A DNA stretch of 22,660 nucleotides, taken from the NCBI GenBank assembly GCA_003152255.1, contig PLZT01000085.1, positions 1 to 22,660 of the forward strand, written 5' to 3'. The notes beneath the pieces were generated by a model that did not search any database, was not told the origin of the DNA, and saw only the letters and a program-made list of their open reading frames with translations. A program made the translations under genes and the position numbers. This DNA is from Methylocystaceae bacterium (GTDB lineage: Bacteria; Pseudomonadota; Alphaproteobacteria; Rhizobiales; Beijerinckiaceae). The stretch's first letter is position 1. Each line of letters begins with the position of its first letter. Shown in pieces: positions 1 through 22,498 of the stretch.

Positions 1-257
1 TCGGCGGAATTGGCGGCGAGCCCGGCCGTCTTCGAATAGTCCTTCCATGCCTGCGCGACGGTATTGATGTCCTTGGCGCCGACCTTGATCTTCGACAGCG
101 ACGAGACGAAACGATCCGTCGCGCCGGTGTTGGCCATGCCCTTGGCCATCTCTTGAACCGCGCGCTCGGCGTCCTTGAGCGCCTGACCGACCGTGCGAGC
201 GGGTTTGCTCACATCGTCGATCATTTTCAAGGTGAGAGTCGATGTCAGGCTGGCCAT
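1..257 (-). CDS. Tail tape measure protein, N-terminal part (runs off the left edge)
   Basis: This frame starts at ATG 257-255 and stays open to base 1, giving about 85 residues. The protein begins MASLTSTLTLKMIDDVSKPA and continues as a charged, helix-prone sequence. That opening resembles the N-termini of tape measure proteins of P2-like and other contractile tails, which set tail length and pass through the tube into the host. The position supports the call: it follows sheath, tube and the E/E' chaperone, exactly where gene T lies in P2. The start overlaps the E' stop (247-245) by 13 nt, and GAGAAG lies 5 nt upstream as a ribosome-binding site. Most of the protein lies outside the window, so its length, membrane segments and any lytic domain cannot be judged. 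Confidence 0.8.
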   Translation of the reverse strand, partial: MASLTSTLTLKMIDDVSKPARTVGQALKDAERAVQEMAKGMANTGATDRFVSSLSKIKVGAKDINTVAQAWKDYSKTAGLAANSA

Positions 258-748: not shown

Positions 749-1282
749 TTAGCCGGCGACGCGGAGGATCGCGTTCATATCGTTTTGGTTGACGCCATCG
801 ACGCGCCAGATGCGACCGAAGAAATCCCAGAAGTATTTTTCCGCCTGATTGAAATAAATCTCCATATGGGTGACCTCCTTCAACTCGAAGTCTTGGCCGA
901 CGAGATCGCCGCGCTTGTATTCGTCGTTGCCGACCTTCACCATGCGCGCCTGGATGATCGCCTTGTATTCGACCGGAATATTGCCGTTTTTGTTCCGCAC
1001 GCCGCCATAGATCGAATAGAAGTTCTGCGCCACCCCGTTGACGCCAAACTGACTCATCGATTGCGGATCGATGCCCTTGACCTTGAAGCTTAGATTGAAA
1101 GCTTTGTTTCCGAGGCCGCCAATCTCGATAGCCCCATAGGAGCCGCCTGGATGGAAGTCCTGCGTTAGCTCATCGAGGTCCGAGATTTTGATGTTATTGA
1201 CGATGAGGCCCTTGTCGGCGTCGCCGCCGCCGGAGCCGACGAATATCGTCCCCGCTTCCCAGATGAATAATGACGACGCCAT
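749..1282 (-). CDS. FII: Major tail tube protein (P2 FII-like)
   Basis: This 177-aa protein would form the inner tube of the contractile tail. It begins MASSLFIWEAGTIFVG and contains phrases typical of P2-type tubes: NNIKISDLDELTQDFHPGG near residue 30, GLGNKAFNLSFKVKGIDP near residue 60, and YKAIIQARM in the second half. It is close to the usual length of the family (about 170). ATG 1282 has AAGGAA 6 nt upstream. The gene lies directly after the sheath gene with a 42-nt gap, as FII follows FI in P2. The gap could hold the signal that sets tube versus sheath expression, but I see no clear hairpin there. Confidence 0.92.
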   Translation of the reverse strand: MASSLFIWEAGTIFVGSGGGDADKGLIVNNIKISDLDELTQDFHPGGSYGAIEIGGLGNKAFNLSFKVKGIDPQSMSQFGVNGVAQNFYSIYGGVRNKNGNIPVEYKAIIQARMVKVGNDEYKRGDLVGQDFELKEVTHMEIYFNQAEKYFWDFFGRIWRVDGVNQNDMNAILRVAG

Positions 1283-1324: not shown

Positions 1325-3175
1325 TCAGCCGGCGAGCTGTTGCGCCTGGGTGGACAGCGTGGCGATTTCCTGAATGAGCGCCGTGCGGTCGAGTCCACTG
1401 TCGATCGTGACTTGCAGAATCGGCGCGGGCTCTTCGCCGTCGAAGAAGACGCGGAATTTGCCGGCGCGCAGATTGTCCGGCGTGTTGACCGAGCTGTCAA
1501 AGCCAACCGCCCAACCGATAAGACAGTCATTGGCCTTGAGATCGACCGAGATGGCCGCCATGTCGTTGAGAACGTCTTGCACGCCTTGCAGCGTGACGTT
1601 ATCGACGCCGAGGCGGAGGCGGATGCTTTTCAGCAACGCGAGGTGAATAAAGTCACGACCGCGCGTCTTGTTGAACAGATTCCACAGCGGGTCCGTGCTG
1701 GCGTTCATGTAGGAGATCAGCGACCATCCGCTATCCGTGAGCGAAGCGTCAGCATGATTGCCGCGCGCCACGACGCCGACGCCGCTGGCGAGGAGTTCCT
1801 GCCCGTCCGTCGCGCCGTCGAGTAGCGAGAAGCTGTCGACGCGCACGGTGCCGAGAATGCCTTGGATCGGCTGATTGGCGAACGAATGGAACGGATAGCC
1901 GGCATTTGCGAAATCGACCCGCACGCCGATGCCGAGCGCTTGAGCGACGACATCCTGTGTCTCGGTCCCGGTCCCGGCCAGATTTTCGATGATGACCGGA
2001 TCGTCGACCGGGATAAGGCGCTTGCTCGCCAGCGTCGTCTGCCAGTTGATCGCATCTGTTTTCGTGGTGCCGGGGCCGCCGACGATGGCATGGGCCATCA
2101 GCGCTTCGCAGACGGCGGGGAGCGCCGCGCAAAGCGGGTTGGCGAGCAATTCGCCCCCCGTTACTGCGACCGTGACATTGAACTCGTCGCCGATCTGGAA
2201 GTCTGGCGAACCGTCCGCGATGGTGAACCCGATCTGATCGGCATAGGCGCTGCCGACCGTCGCTTGCGGCAGCGGGTTGCCGAAAGGGTCAGCAACCGAG
2301 AATACGCCGCCATTGGTCGGCACGACCGCCGACACGGCGAGGTCGAACTCGTCGCCCTTGATGAAATCTGGCGTGCCGTCCGCGATGGTGAAGCCGATGC
2401 CGAGGCTGCTCGTGTAAGCCGCTCCGACCACCGCGAGACCGTCAACCGTGCCATCGGGGCGTAGAACCACGAAAGTGCCGCCATTGGTCGCGGTAAGCTG
2501 GCAGACAGCGCGCCACGTTCCGAGCGTCGTGCTGGCGTTCGATGTGAGCGAACCAAGCGTGCCCCCGCCGGTATTTCCGCCAGCCTTTGGCGCGGAAGCC
2601 GCCGATGTGCCGCCGCCGATGCAAATGAGTTCGTAAATGCCAGGCTGGACGCCGGTGAGATTTGGAGGACTCGCGAGAGTGAGCGCGCCGCCGCCGACAT
2701 TGCCGCCGACACGCGCCGCCGCCTCGGTGACGGTCATCGTGCCGCCGACGAAGGTGTATTCGCCGGTGAAGCCGGGGAAGCCCAGCAAACGCGGCGTCAC
2801 GCCGAGCAGCGATGGTGCGGTCAGCAGCGCATAAATGCCGGTCTTGGCGCCAGAGGTGCCGATGATGTTCGTCATCGTCTCGGCGGTATCTCCGCCGGTC
2901 GCCACGCGCACCACGACCGCGCGCGCCGAGACTTGCTGCGACATGAGCTGATTGTTGACGGCGAGCAGCGTCTTATAAAGCGGACCCGACCCGATGTTGG
3001 CGAGGACGGCCGGATCGCCAGTGTTGATGTCCACCGGCGTGTTGAGTGGAAACATCGTCGCGTTGGCGTCGTCGGACGGCAGCACAATGCCGAGCACCGA
3101 GAAGTCGCCATAGGTCGGCGGGTAAACATCGTTGTCGACGATGTTAAAGATTACGCCGAAAGACGGTTCTGTCAT
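1325..3175 (-). CDS. FI: Contractile tail sheath protein (P2 FI-like) with a large inserted domain
   Basis: This 616-aa protein is well above the roughly 390-500 residues usual for P2-type sheaths. Residues 1-145 (SFGVIFNIVDNDVYPP; GIYALLTAPSLLGVTPRLLG) and residues about 340-616 (NPLCAALPAVCEALMAHAIV; VDDPVIIENLAG; the WNLFNKTRGRDFIHLALLKS region; a C-terminal helix ending AQQLAG) read as a continuous sheath fold. Between them, residues 157-336 form a module also found in the decoration protein of the same phage (113 of 180 aligned positions identical, no gaps, hand count). The module sits just after the family's G.PG motif, a point likely to face outward. ATG 3175 has TTGGAG about 8 nt upstream. 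A strong terminator-like hairpin ends only 15 nt before the start codon. Confidence 0.93.
   Translation of the reverse strand: MTEPSFGVIFNIVDNDVYPPTYGDFSVLGIVLPSDDANATMFPLNTPVDINTGDPAVLANIGSGPLYKTLLAVNNQLMSQQVSARAVVVRVATGGDTAETMTNIIGTSGAKTGIYALLTAPSLLGVTPRLLGFPGFTGEYTFVGGTMTVTEAAARVGGNVGGGALTLASPPNLTGVQPGIYELICIGGGTSAASAPKAGGNTGGGTLGSLTSNASTTLGTWRAVCQLTATNGGTFVVLRPDGTVDGLAVVGAAYTSSLGIGFTIADGTPDFIKGDEFDLAVSAVVPTNGGVFSVADPFGNPLPQATVGSAYADQIGFTIADGSPDFQIGDEFNVTVAVTGGELLANPLCAALPAVCEALMAHAIVGGPGTTKTDAINWQTTLASKRLIPVDDPVIIENLAGTGTETQDVVAQALGIGVRVDFANAGYPFHSFANQPIQGILGTVRVDSFSLLDGATDGQELLASGVGVVARGNHADASLTDSGWSLISYMNASTDPLWNLFNKTRGRDFIHLALLKSIRLRLGVDNVTLQGVQDVLNDMAAISVDLKANDCLIGWAVGFDSSVNTPDNLRAGKFRVFFDGEEPAPILQVTIDSGLDRTALIQEIATLSTQAQQLAG
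2168..2707 (-). repeat. Shared surface module, sheath copy (residues 157-336)
   Basis: This segment encodes one copy of the module shared with the decoration protein. It starts at GGN.G.G, passes GIY..ICIGG, GGNTG.GTLGSL, W..VC, ATN.GTFVV..PDGTVDG, then a double unit each ending FTIADG..DF..GDEF...V. The last two units (about residues 229-283 and 285-338) resemble each other, so the module itself contains an internal tandem repeat. The partner is at 15383-15922. The two copies align over 180 residues with no gaps; the DNA also looks alike but is clearly diverged. Confidence 0.9.
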
Positions 3176-14006: not shown

Positions 14007-15029
14007 TTAGATCGTGCCGGACGCCAGCGCCTGCGGCATGGTGCAGACGTGCAGCGGGTAGCTGTAGACCTCGACGGACGCAAAGGAATCACGAACAGTA
14101 TCGACGACCATCCATGAATATCGTCCCTGGCCCGGCGTATTGACAAATTCGAAGCGCTCCGCCGGCGCGTAGGCAACTTGGAAAATTCCCGCGCCAGCCG
14201 GGAAAAACTTCACCTTGTTCGTCGGAACGGCGACAGTGGAATTGTCGTCCGTGCCACGGTAGTTGTGCCAAAGGATTCCACCGAAATCGTAGGTTTTCCA
14301 GGTGCGGCCAACAATACTGCGGAGTTGCGGGGCCTCAACGTTGAATTTGTAGGTGTCTCGCACCTCTTTTGACGTTGTGAAGGCGTCCCAAAAGGCGTCG
14401 CCACAGAGCGCATGGACCTCGACACCTGTCCCGCCGAGTCCCTTCAAGGATCGGATCATGGCGCGGATGATCGTATTGGATTGGGCGATGATAGCTCCCT
14501 CGGTCGCGGAAGAGCTAAAATTAAATACAATCTCGGCTCCAGGCGTCTGGCTGAACTCATCCCACCAATCGTATAGGACGCTCCCGTCAGCATCGACGAC
14601 AATGCCCTGAACGGCGCCGAGGCGCATGTTCTCTTCGGTGAGTTCGAAGTTCTTATTGATTTTCATTTGGCGGCGAGTGATCTCGATCGACAGGTCTTTG
14701 ACCGCCGCCTCTTGCCCGAATTCTCGAATCCCCTGCAATTCGTGCGCCCAAACCGTCGACGCCTCGAAAAGGCGAAATGTTTTGAAGCCGCGAACTTTTC
14801 GCTTGTCGCCGCCCTCGGTTGTGGGCGGTGCGCCACGCGGAGAGGTTTGGATAATTCTCTGCCCGAGGTCTCGCTCCTCAAGCCACACGCCTTCCGTGCG
14901 GATGGACTTTTTTTCAAAAAGACCCGGGATGGTTCCGAGGAAGCTTGGTGTGAATTCCTGCCGATCGATGGCATCAGTCAGAGAGCGAAACGAAAAGGCG
15001 TCGCCCAGGAAGACGTCTAGGATGGACAT
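14007..15029 (-). CDS. Major capsid protein (lambda gpE family)
   Basis: The 340-aa protein is the head shell subunit. It matches the lambda gpE family in length (341 in lambda) and in conserved segments: LTDAIDRQEFTPSFLGTIPG and the FEKKSIRTEGVWLEE stretch at the start, AVQGIVVDADGSVLYDWWDE and FNFSSSATEGAIIAQSNTI in the middle, GVEVHALCGDAFWDAFTTSK and TDDNSTVAVPTNKVKFFPAG after that, with FVNTPGQGRY toward the end. AAGGAAA lies upstream of ATG 15029 as a strong ribosome-binding site. The gene follows the decoration gene with a gap of about 134 nt that holds a strong terminator-like hairpin. No insertion or truncation is visible, in contrast to the decoration protein. Confidence 0.95.
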   Translation of the reverse strand: MSILDVFLGDAFSFRSLTDAIDRQEFTPSFLGTIPGLFEKKSIRTEGVWLEERDLGQRIIQTSPRGAPPTTEGGDKRKVRGFKTFRLFEASTVWAHELQGIREFGQEAAVKDLSIEITRRQMKINKNFELTEENMRLGAVQGIVVDADGSVLYDWWDEFSQTPGAEIVFNFSSSATEGAIIAQSNTIIRAMIRSLKGLGGTGVEVHALCGDAFWDAFTTSKEVRDTYKFNVEAPQLRSIVGRTWKTYDFGGILWHNYRGTDDNSTVAVPTNKVKFFPAGAGIFQVAYAPAERFEFVNTPGQGRYSWMVVDTVRDSFASVEVYSYPLHVCTMPQALASGTI

Positions 15030-15163: not shown

Positions 15164-16108
15164 TCAGCGGAACTTGACGAGAGACGTGTTGAACGTAGCG
15201 ATAGCCGCCGCGATCTGTGCCGCCGTCGGCGAACCGCCGAACGTGATGTCGCTCAAACGCACCGTCGCGGCCGCATTGATAATAGCTATCTCCGCCGTCG
15301 TGCTCGCGCCCGTCGTTGCGCCATAGCCGGCGATGGCCGCTGGCGTATCTCCCGGCGTCCAGGCGACATATTCCTGATTGACGACAGTCACGTCGAACTC
15401 ATCGCCGACAATGAAATCGGGAGCGCCATCGGCAATCGTGAAGCCAAGCTGCGTCGAGAAGGCCGAGCCCACCGTCGCATTGGCGACGAAAACGCCCTTC
15501 GGGTCCGTGACCGAGAAAACGCCGCCGTTGCTGGGGACGACATTGGTCACGGTCATATCGAATTCGTCGCCGACGATGAAGTCCGTGCTGCCGTCCGCGA
15601 TGGTGAAGTTCGGGCCATGCGCCGAATTATAAGCGACGGCGACAGTTGCGATGCCGTCGACCGTGCCGTCCGGCTTGAACACCACAAAAGTGCCGGCATT
15701 CGTGGCGGCGACTTCGCAGACGACGCGCCAGGCGCCCGACACGGCATCGGAGTCGACGGTAAGCGAGCCGACCGTTCCATTGCCGGTATTGCCGCCGCTT
15801 TTCGCCGCCGAAGCGATCGATAGAGCGCCGCCGATGCAGACGACACGATAGATGCCTTGCTGCGACCCCGCGAGATAGGCGGGAGACGCCGGCGTCATGA
15901 GGCCCGCGCCGGTATTGCCGCCGGTCTTCGCGGCGTGCGAGACAGTCGTTGGCGTGGTCTTCAAAACCTGGCCGACGACAATCGTCTGACTGTTCCCGAT
16001 CACAGCCATATCGCGGGAAAGATAGCCGACGCCATCCGTATCATCGGAAATTAAGAAGGTGAACGGATGGAGAGCTTCGTTGAGTGTGATGCCTTGGGGA
16101 GTTCCCAT
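15164..16108 (-). CDS. Head decoration protein (lambda gpD-like) carrying an inserted module
   Basis: Residues 1-60 (GITLNEALHPFTFLISDD; GYLSRDMAVIGNSQTIVVGQ; VLKTTPTT) match the start of gpD-like decoration proteins, which stabilise the capsid from outside as trimers. Residues 245-314 (AWTPGDTPAAIAGYGATTGA; TAEIAIINAAATVRLSDITF; AAAIATFNTSLVKFR) match the end of that family. Residues 63-242 form a module inserted between, the same as in the tail sheath (113 of 180 identical by hand count). At 314 aa the protein is almost three times as long as lambda gpD (110 aa). ATG 16108 has GAGGT as ribosome-binding site 5 nt upstream. The order protease-decoration-capsid is that of lambda. Confidence 0.9.
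   Translation of the reverse strand: MGTPQGITLNEALHPFTFLISDDTDGVGYLSRDMAVIGNSQTIVVGQVLKTTPTTVSHAAKTGGNTGAGLMTPASPAYLAGSQQGIYRVVCIGGALSIASAAKSGGNTGNGTVGSLTVDSDAVSGAWRVVCEVAATNAGTFVVFKPDGTVDGIATVAVAYNSAHGPNFTIADGSTDFIVGDEFDMTVTNVVPSNGGVFSVTDPKGVFVANATVGSAFSTQLGFTIADGAPDFIVGDEFDVTVVNQEYVAWTPGDTPAAIAGYGATTGASTTAEIAIINAAATVRLSDITFGGSPTAAQIAAAIATFNTSLVKFR
15383..15922 (-). repeat. Shared surface module, decoration copy (residues 63-242)
   Basis: This segment encodes the second copy of the module found in the tail sheath (2168-2707). The alignment begins at GGNTGAG and ends at GDEFDVTV, running 180 residues without a gap. Both copies contain GIYR/E, one W-R-V-C segment, the ATN.GTFVV..PDGTVDG motif and two FTIADG..DF..GDEF units. 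Similar GTF..PDG...FTIADG repeats are known to me from decoration proteins of other proteobacterial phages; their fold is probably beta-sandwich-like, but that is inference. Confidence 0.9.
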
Positions 16109-16138: not shown

Positions 16139-16594
16139 TTAACGACGGCCCGAGTTGCGGGCTTCCTCTTTGTTGACGACATCGACCGCGTTTTTCCAAA
16201 GCGAGGCGTTCGTCGTATTGCTCTTCTCACCTGTTTCGACGGGGAACTCGCCGAGAACCGTTGCGGCAGCGCGGGCGGCGACCGACGTGGTTTTCGGGAC
16301 GCCAGCAAGCGCGCCGACAGCCGCGTCGAGGCTCATGTCAGTATTGAGCGCGAAGTGCTGTGCGGTCGTCTCGCGGCCCTTGGCGTCGGCATGGCCGAGG
16401 ATGGCGACAATGCGCCCGCGCTCGGCTTTCGCGCCAGTCGCGAGCCCTTCCGCCAGTCCGGCCTTGTGGCCTTCGGCGACGCCAGCGGCCTTTCCTTCTT
16501 TAAACCCGGTCTCGCGGCCAACATTGTTGCCTTCGGTCACTCCGGCGTGTTGCCCTTCGGTGCGCGCGCGGTCCAAGTCAGTTTGATCAAACAT
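16139..16594 (-). CDS. Nested in-frame scaffold protein (lambda Nu3-like), internal start in the protease gene
   Basis: Within the protease gene, GGAG is followed after 7 nt by ATG 16594-16592, in frame. Reading from there gives 151 aa starting MFDQTDLDRARTEGQ. The product is helix-prone, charged, and rich in G/E repeats (TGFKEGKAAGVAEGHKAGLA), then ends in a C-terminal segment with NTTNASLWKNAVDVV. In lambda the scaffold Nu3 is made from an internal start in C in exactly this way. An earlier ATG at 16600 has the GGAG only 1 nt away, too close to use. Independent synthesis is inferred from this site; the scaffold part may also act only as the tail of the protease. Confidence 0.65.
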   Translation of the reverse strand: MFDQTDLDRARTEGQHAGVTEGNNVGRETGFKEGKAAGVAEGHKAGLAEGLATGAKAERGRIVAILGHADAKGRETTAQHFALNTDMSLDAAVGALAGVPKTTSVAARAAATVLGEFPVETGEKSNTTNASLWKNAVDVVNKEEARNSGRR

Positions 16595-17554
16595 CTTCAT
16601 GCTCCGATTGCTCGCGCGGCCTTTCGCCGACGAGGACAGGTTCCCGACAAGATCGGCAAACGATCCAATGTCGTCGACGAGGCCGGCCCCTTGCGCGGCA
16701 CGGCCGATATAGGTCCGCGCCTCGGTGGCGCGAGCCGCCTTCGCGGAAAGGCGTCTTCCACGCCCCGCCGCGACGGTATTCAAAAACTGGTCATAGAACG
16801 CATCGACCTCGGCCTGGAGGTCGGTACGGACTTCCTTCGACAACGGCTCGTATGGATTCCCATCGACCTTATGCGCGCCGGCATGGATGAATGTCGGCGT
16901 CACGCCAGCCCGGTCGATCGCGCGGGAATAGTCCGCGTGCATGAGGACGACGCCGATTGATCCCGCAAGGCCAGATTCGGTCGAGGTGATCGACTTCGCC
17001 CCGGAGGCCAACGCATAGGCCGCGCTCGCCGCCATCCCGTTGACGACCGCGTGAACCGGCTTCTCACCATTGACCTTGCGAATAAGCGCCGAAGTCTCCA
17101 TCGCGCCGACCGCCTCGCCGCCGGGGGACTCGATGTCGAGCACGATGGATTTGACTTTCGGATCACGAGCCGCGCTTTCGATTTGATGCGCGATGCCCTC
17201 ATAGCTCGTCATTCCAGACGATGCGCCGATGAATGCGCCCCGGTTCACAAGCGATCCGGTGATGGTGATGACAGCGACACCCTCCGGCGTGCGGCGGTAA
17301 GGCAACCGCGCTGGGCGCCCGTTAGCGTCAGTCTCCGTCGCATCGCCGACAAAGCGTGATGCGTCGGGGCGCCGCGCCATCGCTTGCGCGACCGCCTCCG
17401 CGACTTCCGGGTCATGTGCATTGACCATCGGCGCAATCGCGTCGACGCCAATGCGGCCAGCGAGCACTTCCGTCAGGATCGCCAGCTTGTCCGGCAAGAT
17501 CAGCAGCGGCCGGTTTATGACGCGATCAGCGATGTGGACGAGTAAATTCGACAT
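16139..17554 (-). CDS. Head maturation protease, S49 family (lambda gpC-like), with C-terminal scaffold
   Basis: The frame opens at TTG 17557, but ATG 17554 overlaps the preceding stop (TGATG) and is the likely start, giving 471 aa. Residues 90-300 form an S49/SppA-type serine protease: ITGSLVNRGAF, SIVLDIESPGGEAVGAME, then GMAASAAYALASGA with the catalytic Ser at about 177 (ATG numbering), LAGSIGVVLMH, and Lys at about 229 in HKVDGNPYEPLS as the general base. In lambda this enzyme is packed inside the procapsid. Residues 320-471 are Lys/Glu-rich with repeats of EG..AG..EG and match a scaffold domain. An internal start at 16594 would produce that part alone, as Nu3 is nested in lambda C. Confidence 0.92.
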   Translation of the reverse strand: MSNLLVHIADRVINRPLLILPDKLAILTEVLAGRIGVDAIAPMVNAHDPEVAEAVAQAMARRPDASRFVGDATETDANGRPARLPYRRTPEGVAVITITGSLVNRGAFIGASSGMTSYEGIAHQIESAARDPKVKSIVLDIESPGGEAVGAMETSALIRKVNGEKPVHAVVNGMAASAAYALASGAKSITSTESGLAGSIGVVLMHADYSRAIDRAGVTPTFIHAGAHKVDGNPYEPLSKEVRTDLQAEVDAFYDQFLNTVAAGRGRRLSAKAARATEARTYIGRAAQGAGLVDDIGSFADLVGNLSSSAKGRASNRSMKMFDQTDLDRARTEGQHAGVTEGNNVGRETGFKEGKAAGVAEGHKAGLAEGLATGAKAERGRIVAILGHADAKGRETTAQHFALNTDMSLDAAVGALAGVPKTTSVAARAAATVLGEFPVETGEKSNTTNASLWKNAVDVVNKEEARNSGRR

Positions 17555-17850
17555 CAAAACCGCCGATCATAATCGCGCCCCGGCCCGCGATACCGATAGC
17601 CTGCCCCTATGGCGAAACGGCGGTTTGGATCTGGCAGTCCTTGACACTTGGCGCATTCGCTTTGCGCCGAGCGCAGTTCCGATTGCAGCCGGTCGATGTC
17701 GACGCTCTGGAACCGCACGAGGTCTTCCGCGTCATATGTGCGCGTGCGGATTTCCGTCTCGCGGTTGCCGGAGAGCAGCGCGTAATATGCGATCTGGAGC
17801 GCTGCCGCGCGCGCGCAAGCATTGGTCCAATCAACGGGCGCGTCGGCCAT
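17554..17850 (-). CDS. gpW-like head completion protein
   Basis: This 98-aa protein matches the pattern of lambda gpW-type head-joining proteins: a helix (CARAAALQIAYYALLSGNRE), a beta-hairpin (EIRTRTYDAEDLVRFQ), a second helix (VDIDRLQSELRSAQ) and a positively charged C-terminus (GYRYRGPGRDYDRRF). gpW closes the portal after packaging so that the tail can bind. It is longer than lambda gpW (68 aa), mostly at the ends, and contains C-A-K-C near residue 66. It starts 2 nt after the portal stop and its own stop overlaps the protease ATG as TGATG. In lambda W precedes the portal gene; here it follows it. Confidence 0.82.
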   Translation of the reverse strand: MADAPVDWTNACARAAALQIAYYALLSGNRETEIRTRTYDAEDLVRFQSVDIDRLQSELRSAQSECAKCQGLPDPNRRFAIGAGYRYRGPGRDYDRRF

Positions 17851-22023: not shown

Positions 22024-22041
22024 ACTCATGGCTCTTATCAA
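22013..22041 (-). promoter_or_regulatory. Candidate minus-strand promoter for the terminase operon
   Basis: On the minus strand, TTGATA (22041-22036, 5 of 6 match to TTGACA) is followed by a 17-nt spacer and TCTAAC (22018-22013, 4 of 6 match to TATAAT). Transcription would begin shortly after and run into the small terminase gene. The -10 lies inside the upstream copy of the GTTAG-A-CTAAC repeat, so a protein bound there would block it. The call is based on motif resemblance only; the host sigma factor consensus may differ. Confidence 0.4.
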
Positions 22042-22498
22042 ATACGTCAACGTCGCAGATGAGATCGAAGCGCGCGCCCGCGTGAAGCGAGAACGTGATC
22101 GACAAACGGCATTCAACCGGACCGAATATCAGCGCGAATACATGCGCGATAGGCGGTCATCCGTCTGTTATGTCTACGTAATCGGCGTAAAAGACGGACC
22201 GATGAAGATCGGCGTAAGCACCGATCTGGCTCAACGCATGGACACGCTAGGGGCGCAAAGCCCATATCCGCTGACGATCTTCGCCGTCTGGCAGGCCGCT
22301 AGCCGGAAACAGGCGGAGGATATTGAATACGCGGCGCATTCGAGTCTCTCAGGCTTCCATTCGCATTACGAATGGTTTGCCTGTCCGCTTGATGCCGCCA
22401 TGGATGCAGTGAAAGCTGGCGGCGCGTCGATCGTTGTGGACCTAACCACAATCAGCCTGAACCCCGAGAAGCGGAAACCTTGGCTGCGCAGAAAGTGA
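22028..22498 (+). CDS. GIY-YIG-type nuclease-like protein (T5orf172 group)
   Basis: This is the only rightward gene. The 156-aa protein has a basic N-terminal helix (RVKRERDRQTAFNRTEYQRE) followed by a T5orf172/GIY-YIG-like domain: Y48-V-Y50 (CYVYVIGV) in place of GIY, M-K-I-G (59-62) in place of YIG, Arg70 after STDLAQ, and Glu100 in AEDIEYAAH, with H104 and EWF at 115-117. The family contains DNA nucleases and related proteins. The second tyrosine of the classic motif is replaced by Lys, as is common in this group. No ribosome-binding site precedes ATG 22028, and the upstream repeat ends 4 nt before it. Its place next to the terminase genes could mean a role in packaging or a mobile endonuclease; this is open. 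Confidence 0.75.
   Translation: MALIKYVNVADEIEARARVKRERDRQTAFNRTEYQREYMRDRRSSVCYVYVIGVKDGPMKIGVSTDLAQRMDTLGAQSPYPLTIFAVWQAASRKQAEDIEYAAHSSLSGFHSHYEWFACPLDAAMDAVKAGGASIVVDLTTISLNPEKRKPWLRRK

Follow-up and report, generated by a model that had tools for sequence, protein, structure and literature searches.

The window, the whole 22,660-nucleotide stretch of DNA from a Methylocystaceae bacterium analysed here, carries head and tail genes of a contractile-tailed phage, all of them on the minus strand. The tail sheath gene (1325..3175, -) specifies 616 amino acids that include an inserted module; its ORF matches phrog_23, ‘tail sheath’ (E 9.1e-39), and, among PDB sequences, the pyocin sheath PA0622, and the conserved sheath core fold is present. 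Adjoining it is the gene for the tail tube protein (749..1282, -), recognized by PF04985 Phage_tube (E 1e-13) and by phrog_55 (E 2.6e-16), a family which carries the name ‘head closure’. For the head there is major capsid protein E (14007..15029, -; PF03864, E 2.1e-70) and, encoded directly upstream of it, a gpD-like head decoration protein of 314 amino acids (15164..16108, -), also with an inserted module. An S49 peptidase (16139..17557, -; PF01343, E 1.6e-36) bears a long C-terminal extension, which might act as a scaffold built into the protein; lambda C/Nu3 is a precedent. Near the terminase end, and encoded on the other strand from the structural genes, is a 156-amino acid frame (22028..22498, +) with a T5orf172 domain (PF10544, E 5.2e-10).

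How alike are the inserts of the two proteins? An earlier note, made from the letters of the DNA, had claimed by hand count a match of 180 positions without a gap and with about 113 identities (about 63%). The count was exact: on direct alignment of the translations, sheath residues 157–336 (2168..2707, -, as that note had correctly placed them) and decoration residues 63–242 (15383..15922, -) share 113 of 180 residues (62.8%) with no gaps. The best local alignment starts 11 residues earlier, and on that basis the nested FTIADG module is taken as residues 146–336 of the sheath (2168..2740, -), where an AlphaFold model also bears on its extent, and residues 52–242 of the decoration protein (15383..15955, -). 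The alignment scores 597, the maximum reached by 200 shuffles being 74, and neither at the protein nor the DNA level is identity low or the match patchy, as there are 10–16 identities in each 20-residue block and the DNA is 64% identical. Codon positions 1, 2 and 3 are 68, 78 and 45% identical, which points to a relationship that is old and has been under selection; with third positions at 45%, a recent intragenomic duplication is ruled out. No Pfam family matches the module of either protein above its cut-off.

The module has an internal order, A1(A2B2)B1, with a second unit sitting between the A and B halves of the first. In the sheath, A1 comprises about residues 157–185 (2621..2707, -), the complete inner unit A2B2 residues 199–283 (2327..2581, -), and B1 residues 287–336 (2168..2317, -); in the decoration module the complete inner unit is residues 105–189 (15542..15796, -). 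When A1 and B1 of the sheath are joined and compared with A2B2, 40 of 78 residues are identical, and a second outer to inner comparison gives 41 of 78, with a score of 145 against shuffle maxima of 25 for the first and 32 for the second. The outer half-units, taken together, are thus homologous to the inner unit, i.e., the module is self-nested in the manner A^nB^n, and a half-unit scan reads it as AABB. In further predicted proteins, of which some have gpD flanks, the series extends to n=5: P0144 reads AAAAABBBBB, and P0140, P0141, P0146, P0053 and P0224 read AAAABBBB. Among the 244 proteins scanned, which came from three queries, two of them nested, 25 have a tandem arrangement and 7 an irregular one; the half-unit profiles had been rebuilt from these very proteins, and in the control with reversed sequences a single A was found in 24 of 244 and B in none. 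The protein searches each scored 7990–7996 candidates, from which the best 120 of 377 and the best 120 of 415 matches were taken, together with all 20 from the search with the sheath region. As the second unit is between the A and B of the first, the points where the chain enters and leaves remain next to each other at the base.

For each unit the predicted fold resembles that of a domain of the flagellar proteins FlgL and FlgK, presumably the D2-type one. In structure comparison the inner unit (model range 96..189) aligns to one such domain of FlgL, 5zj0, and 83 residues of the outer halves (model range 52..245) to one of FlgK, 2d4y; the match to the FlgL/FlgK outer-domain fold spans the whole unit, and the top fold rows are FlgL, FlgK and Wzc. 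The model of the decoration protein has a pLDDT of 89, and block means in the AlphaFold sheath model are 79–92 at residues 181–330 and 60–84 at residues 141–180. Profile likenesses are fainter. The flgK_1st_1 profile matches weakly in 3 of 27 decoration proteins (best E 0.0099), Big_8 in 2 of 21 sheaths (best E 0.037) and 4 of 27 decoration proteins (0.056), and WZC_N, in the 21 sheaths, at best with E 4e-5. PF22639, domain I of T4 gp18, has matches with E no higher than 1 in 5 of 21 sheaths (best 2.3e-4), and none in the sheath or the decoration protein of the window in the Pfam scan. Some relatives’ units score near the cut-off of that profile and P0151, a decoration protein with nested units, scores above it (30.8 bits, cut-off 27), as P0144 does for WZC_N (37.7 bits, cut-off 27); both scores are summed over repeats with no single stretch passing, and the gp18 match extends over roughly half the domain, positions 2–45 of 93. 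The tail sheath proteins A0A6J5RGN8 and Q2L551 are among the weaker matches in a structure search of viral models. Taken with the gp18 and Wzc scores, this weakly suggests that the superfamily of the FTIADG unit may decorate other sheaths too. Matches to PDB sequences of designed beta-trefoils were discarded, as they rest on a short PDGT-DG word.

Where in the sheath does the module sit? It follows directly on the PRLLGFPG segment, and the earlier note’s reading, that it had been inserted just after a conserved G.PG segment and replaced nothing obvious, holds up. The sheath profile matches the pyocin R2 sheath PA0622 in two pieces with their junction at residue 138, and of 93 sheath cores, the window’s included, 45 are empty at this site, in the sense of having no insert of more than 40 residues. 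In one such relative, L043, the chain runs uninterrupted, PGYTSQRGVGEANPVCA. The site holds the FTIADG module in 30 cores and a GSGYT-type repeat in 16, and the remaining two have an insert elsewhere; the latter, L069 and L078, have it at core position ~41–43 and with sequence alike in both. The GSGYTSAPTV-type repeats, 68–181 amino acids long and in the same slot, are those of L003, L029, L031, L037, L040, L041, L053, L055, L067, L091–L093, L095, L102–L104 and L116; no Pfam family was found for the inserts of the six such proteins scanned, and the profile searches for FTIADG and GSGYT inserts match disjoint sets of 35 viral records. A tree of the cores (93 rows, none identical to another and each covering 330 or more core positions, from 18 proteins, 59 viral loci and 16 genome loci) has 15 changes of slot state against a mean of 40 after shuffling, and its starred branches alone give at least 8 changes for FTIADG and at least 9 for GSGYT, with the proviso that the tree was built quickly, has support from SH-aLRT alone, includes many near-identical empty rows and comes with a long-branch warning. 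The viral scan took the best 80 of 178 loci, so that distant sheaths, probably with an empty site, are undersampled, and the genome scan took 44 loci. So far as these alignments go, the insertion site is a slot that in relatives is empty or filled by other domains. That empty and differently filled sites are common would suit a module that is carried neutrally and persists because its place in the loop does no harm. However, the far greater conservation of codon positions 1 and 2 than of 3 goes against it, as does the reading of 32 of the 34 distinct module-bearing sheath frames as AABB, the other two being fragments that start within the module, and we consider neutral carriage very improbable.

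The decoration protein has a counterpart of this slot. gpD-type decoration proteins are trimers, and here the N-terminal part of the fold (residues 1–51; 15956..16108, -) aligns with bare decoration proteins of 123–130 amino acids, and the C-terminal part (residues 243–314; 15167..15382, -) aligns with relatives and contains, at residues 244–305, a match to PF02924, lambda D (E 4.5e-4), whose 20.8 bits are below the Pfam cut-off of 29.1. All 27 aligned proteins of the decoration set match PF02924 at E up to 1, the best at 1.6e-29. In 20 viral records, 15 decoration proteins are bare (123–130 amino acids), four, those of G007, G008, G012 and G019, have one unit (224–226 amino acids), and one, from G002, a near-identical record of the window’s phage, has the nested module; G006 has a nested module as well, and the occurrence of FTIADG-type units in decoration proteins of other phages, which the earlier note had mentioned, is thereby borne out. 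As the alignments have it, the gpD-like site is empty or holds a single unit in relatives and the nested module in the window’s phage. FTIADG units were also seen in proteins whose precomputed Pfam domain is other than lambda D, namely P0035, P0084 and P0101 (PF22758) and P0043, P0073 and P0164 (PF09956).

Does a phage with the module on its tail also have it on its head? From 35 viral loci, picked mostly by length, 21 have a readable decoration gene and 14 do not (the record of one of the latter, G017, starts at its capsid gene, which is present). Units are in the decoration protein of 5 of the 8 phages with a module-bearing sheath and of 1 of the 13 others, for which Fisher’s p of 0.014, calculated on viral records with kin included, overstates the evidence, as many of the 13 are close relatives. 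The five are G002 and G006, with the full nested module, and G007, G008 and G012, with one unit, so that a profile search did find further phages sharing the module, G006 in full, between the two proteins. G013, G014 and G015 have it on the sheath only, with a bare decoration protein, and G019 is the reverse case, with an empty sheath site and one decoration unit. Co-occurrence on head and tail is frequent, not obligatory, and given these four phages a matched head-tail surface is not required. The earlier note’s interpretation, of one domain displayed on head and tail shaft for a shared surface function, is partly supported. A more general rule of matching coats is ruled out, since GSGYT was not found in decoration-sized frames and in some phages FTIADG units are on one protein only; frames with the GSGYT repeat are of 465–610 amino acids, i.e., sheath-sized, plus one of 1351, and none of decoration size was found among the open frames searched. 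Nineteen of the 44 genome loci were examined separately, outside this count. Among them G038 has a sheath identical to that of G014 and a decoration gene of bare size, G052 has a sheath with the slot empty and a decoration gene with one unit, probably of the same prophage, and G050, a fragmented genome, has GSGYT frames and one-unit decoration genes on separate contigs. The prophage L090 of Microvirga flocculans ATCC BAA-817 combines an FTIADG sheath with a decoration gene of bare size. With tblastn against 50,697 phage records, the 180-residue module has no match at 1e-5 and the whole decoration protein matches 10 records at 1e-2. One weak single FTIADG unit (L260, G058:C1:40622-40936; 35.1 bits) lies in a 912-amino acid frame of G058, whose decoration protein also has a unit. 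The large protein looks like a tailspike; 783 of its residues match no Pfam or PHROG family, and for want of a family its unit was left out as evidence.

The window’s decoration module is 70% identical to that of another sheath, P0122, and 62% to that of its own sheath, so homogenisation within the phage is not seen. Two phages have the full module on sheath and decoration protein alike, and in neither are the phage’s own two modules each other’s closest relatives, which suggests that exchange is from phage to phage and not clearly inside a single genome. A tree of complete modules (73 non-identical segments of 160–215 amino acids with at least 165 model positions, 32 from sheaths and 41 without a sheath core, chiefly from decoration proteins; single units were omitted) has four changes between sheath and non-sheath labels, at least three by starred branches, and places window-type decoration modules P0001–P0006 among sheath modules with support of 98/85 and 96/89. 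One clear case comes from the sheath L020, which is identical to the sheath P0139 at 110 of 137 positions before the module (80%) and 223 of 275 after it (81%), but at 101 of 179 within it (56%), where instead it matches the decoration module of P0002 at 150 of 183 (82%). L020 is a single metagenome contig, 13,367 bases long, that includes a tube gene and on which neither a decoration nor a capsid gene was found, so that a chimeric assembly is conceivable and the conflict between core and module may stem from one. The tree and this case support passage of modules between sheath and decoration genes, with transfer possible in either direction. Could there rather have been just one old copying between the two genes, followed by vertical descent of both? 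The divergence of the window’s two modules, to 45% at third codon positions, would accord with that, and once the L020 row is removed, the test does not clearly reject a single clade for the sheath modules (AU p=0.052, borderline). However, with L020 present one clade for all 32 is rejected (AU p=0.000135), and the label changes and the disagreement of L020 core and module make a single transfer improbable.

What, then, might the module do? Comparison of both proteins with their relatives indicates that it is absent from many close relatives of each, that its sequence is under selection and that the sheath slot has been repeatedly refilled. The interpretation that we favour, with moderate confidence, is of a mobile self-nested beta-domain that serves as an outward low-affinity binder in many copies and has been added on to two virion proteins of a single contractile-tailed phage, themselves unrelated. 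The module would point away from the particle, nesting would lengthen its projection while the host loop is not pried open, and what is weakly bound would be something external, e.g., cell-surface or matrix polysaccharide. The window’s modules are most likely outward accessory modules and probably weak multivalent binders, orientation and binding being what we infer. Alternatively, the module could be cladding, or cement, that stiffens sheath and capsid by touching the subunits next to it and binds nothing outside. In fold it comes closest to outer domains of the flagellar junction proteins, whose role is structural, and such a fold would also suit a module with a purely structural role. In the available text of Evseev et al. 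2022 (PMC9230969), stabilisation is among the roles proposed for additional domains of sheaths, and capsids are often cemented by decoration proteins (PMC7602432). However, the head and sheath lattices differ in geometry, and contact with one particular lattice is the less likely as the module serves both a head decoration protein and a helical sheath and, in the sheaths of relatives, the unrelated GSGYT repeat or nothing takes its place. Related proteins also have anything from one to five nested units. Cement seems unlikely to us, if well worth weighing.

Returning to the outward binder, nesting allows a broader and more tentative proposal: a surface domain that nests recursively in itself, A^nB^n up to five deep, might form rods and be an interchangeable outward binder traded among head and tail proteins. 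With the ends of the rod together at its base, the module would fit closed loops of unlike virion proteins, the decoration protein, the sheath and perhaps others, and such geometry would let phages dress head and tail in one interchangeable, outward-facing binder. Recursive nesting is an unusual route for domain growth, as both chain ends are kept together. With one module on head and tail, apparently moved between them, it can also be tested whether selection acts on the particle surface as a whole and not on one protein. Sheaths whose slot is empty, filled by GSGYT or filled by FTIADG form a natural comparison for the roles of accessory sheath domains, which in the available text on sheaths (PMC9230969) are still hypotheses.

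In the open-licence literature, as far as it was available, no report was found of a decoration-protein unit nested recursively, or of a phage whose sheath and decoration protein have a module in common, in line with the earlier note’s impression that sharing between head and contractile tail is not commonly described. How does the module compare with what is known? The FlgL/FlgK outer domain (5zj0, 4ut1, 2d4y) is flagellar, and here the units are in virion proteins. As with lambda gpD-type proteins (PF02924), the decoration gene is beside the capsid gene and the flanks align with bare gpD-like proteins; unlike them, the window’s protein has a 190-residue nested module inside the fold and a PF02924 score below the cut-off. 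Among the closest known systems are the Ig-like domains of phages (Fraser et al. 2006, via PMC9022992, PMC9230969 and PMC13320782), which, in the accessible parts of these sources, are many-copy accessory beta-domains on head and tail proteins, exchanged between phages and proposed to be weak carbohydrate binders; the accessible part of PMC9022992 has them on five classes of virion protein, with the sheath not listed. Many-copy accessory beta-domains that are exchanged and occur on head and tail are common to both, weak carbohydrate binding having been proposed for the Ig-like ones, but the FTIADG module has its best fold match in FlgL/FlgK, is self-nested, and is on the sheath and decoration protein of one phage. 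Additional sheath domains, in the text available from Evseev et al. 2022 (PMC9230969), lie away from the part that contacts the tube, with adhesion or stability proposed for them. Like those domains the module is an extra beta-domain that interrupts the conserved sheath core, and to what is described there it adds homology with a decoration-protein module, a single slot with empty and alternative states, and what appears to be traffic of a domain between head and tail.
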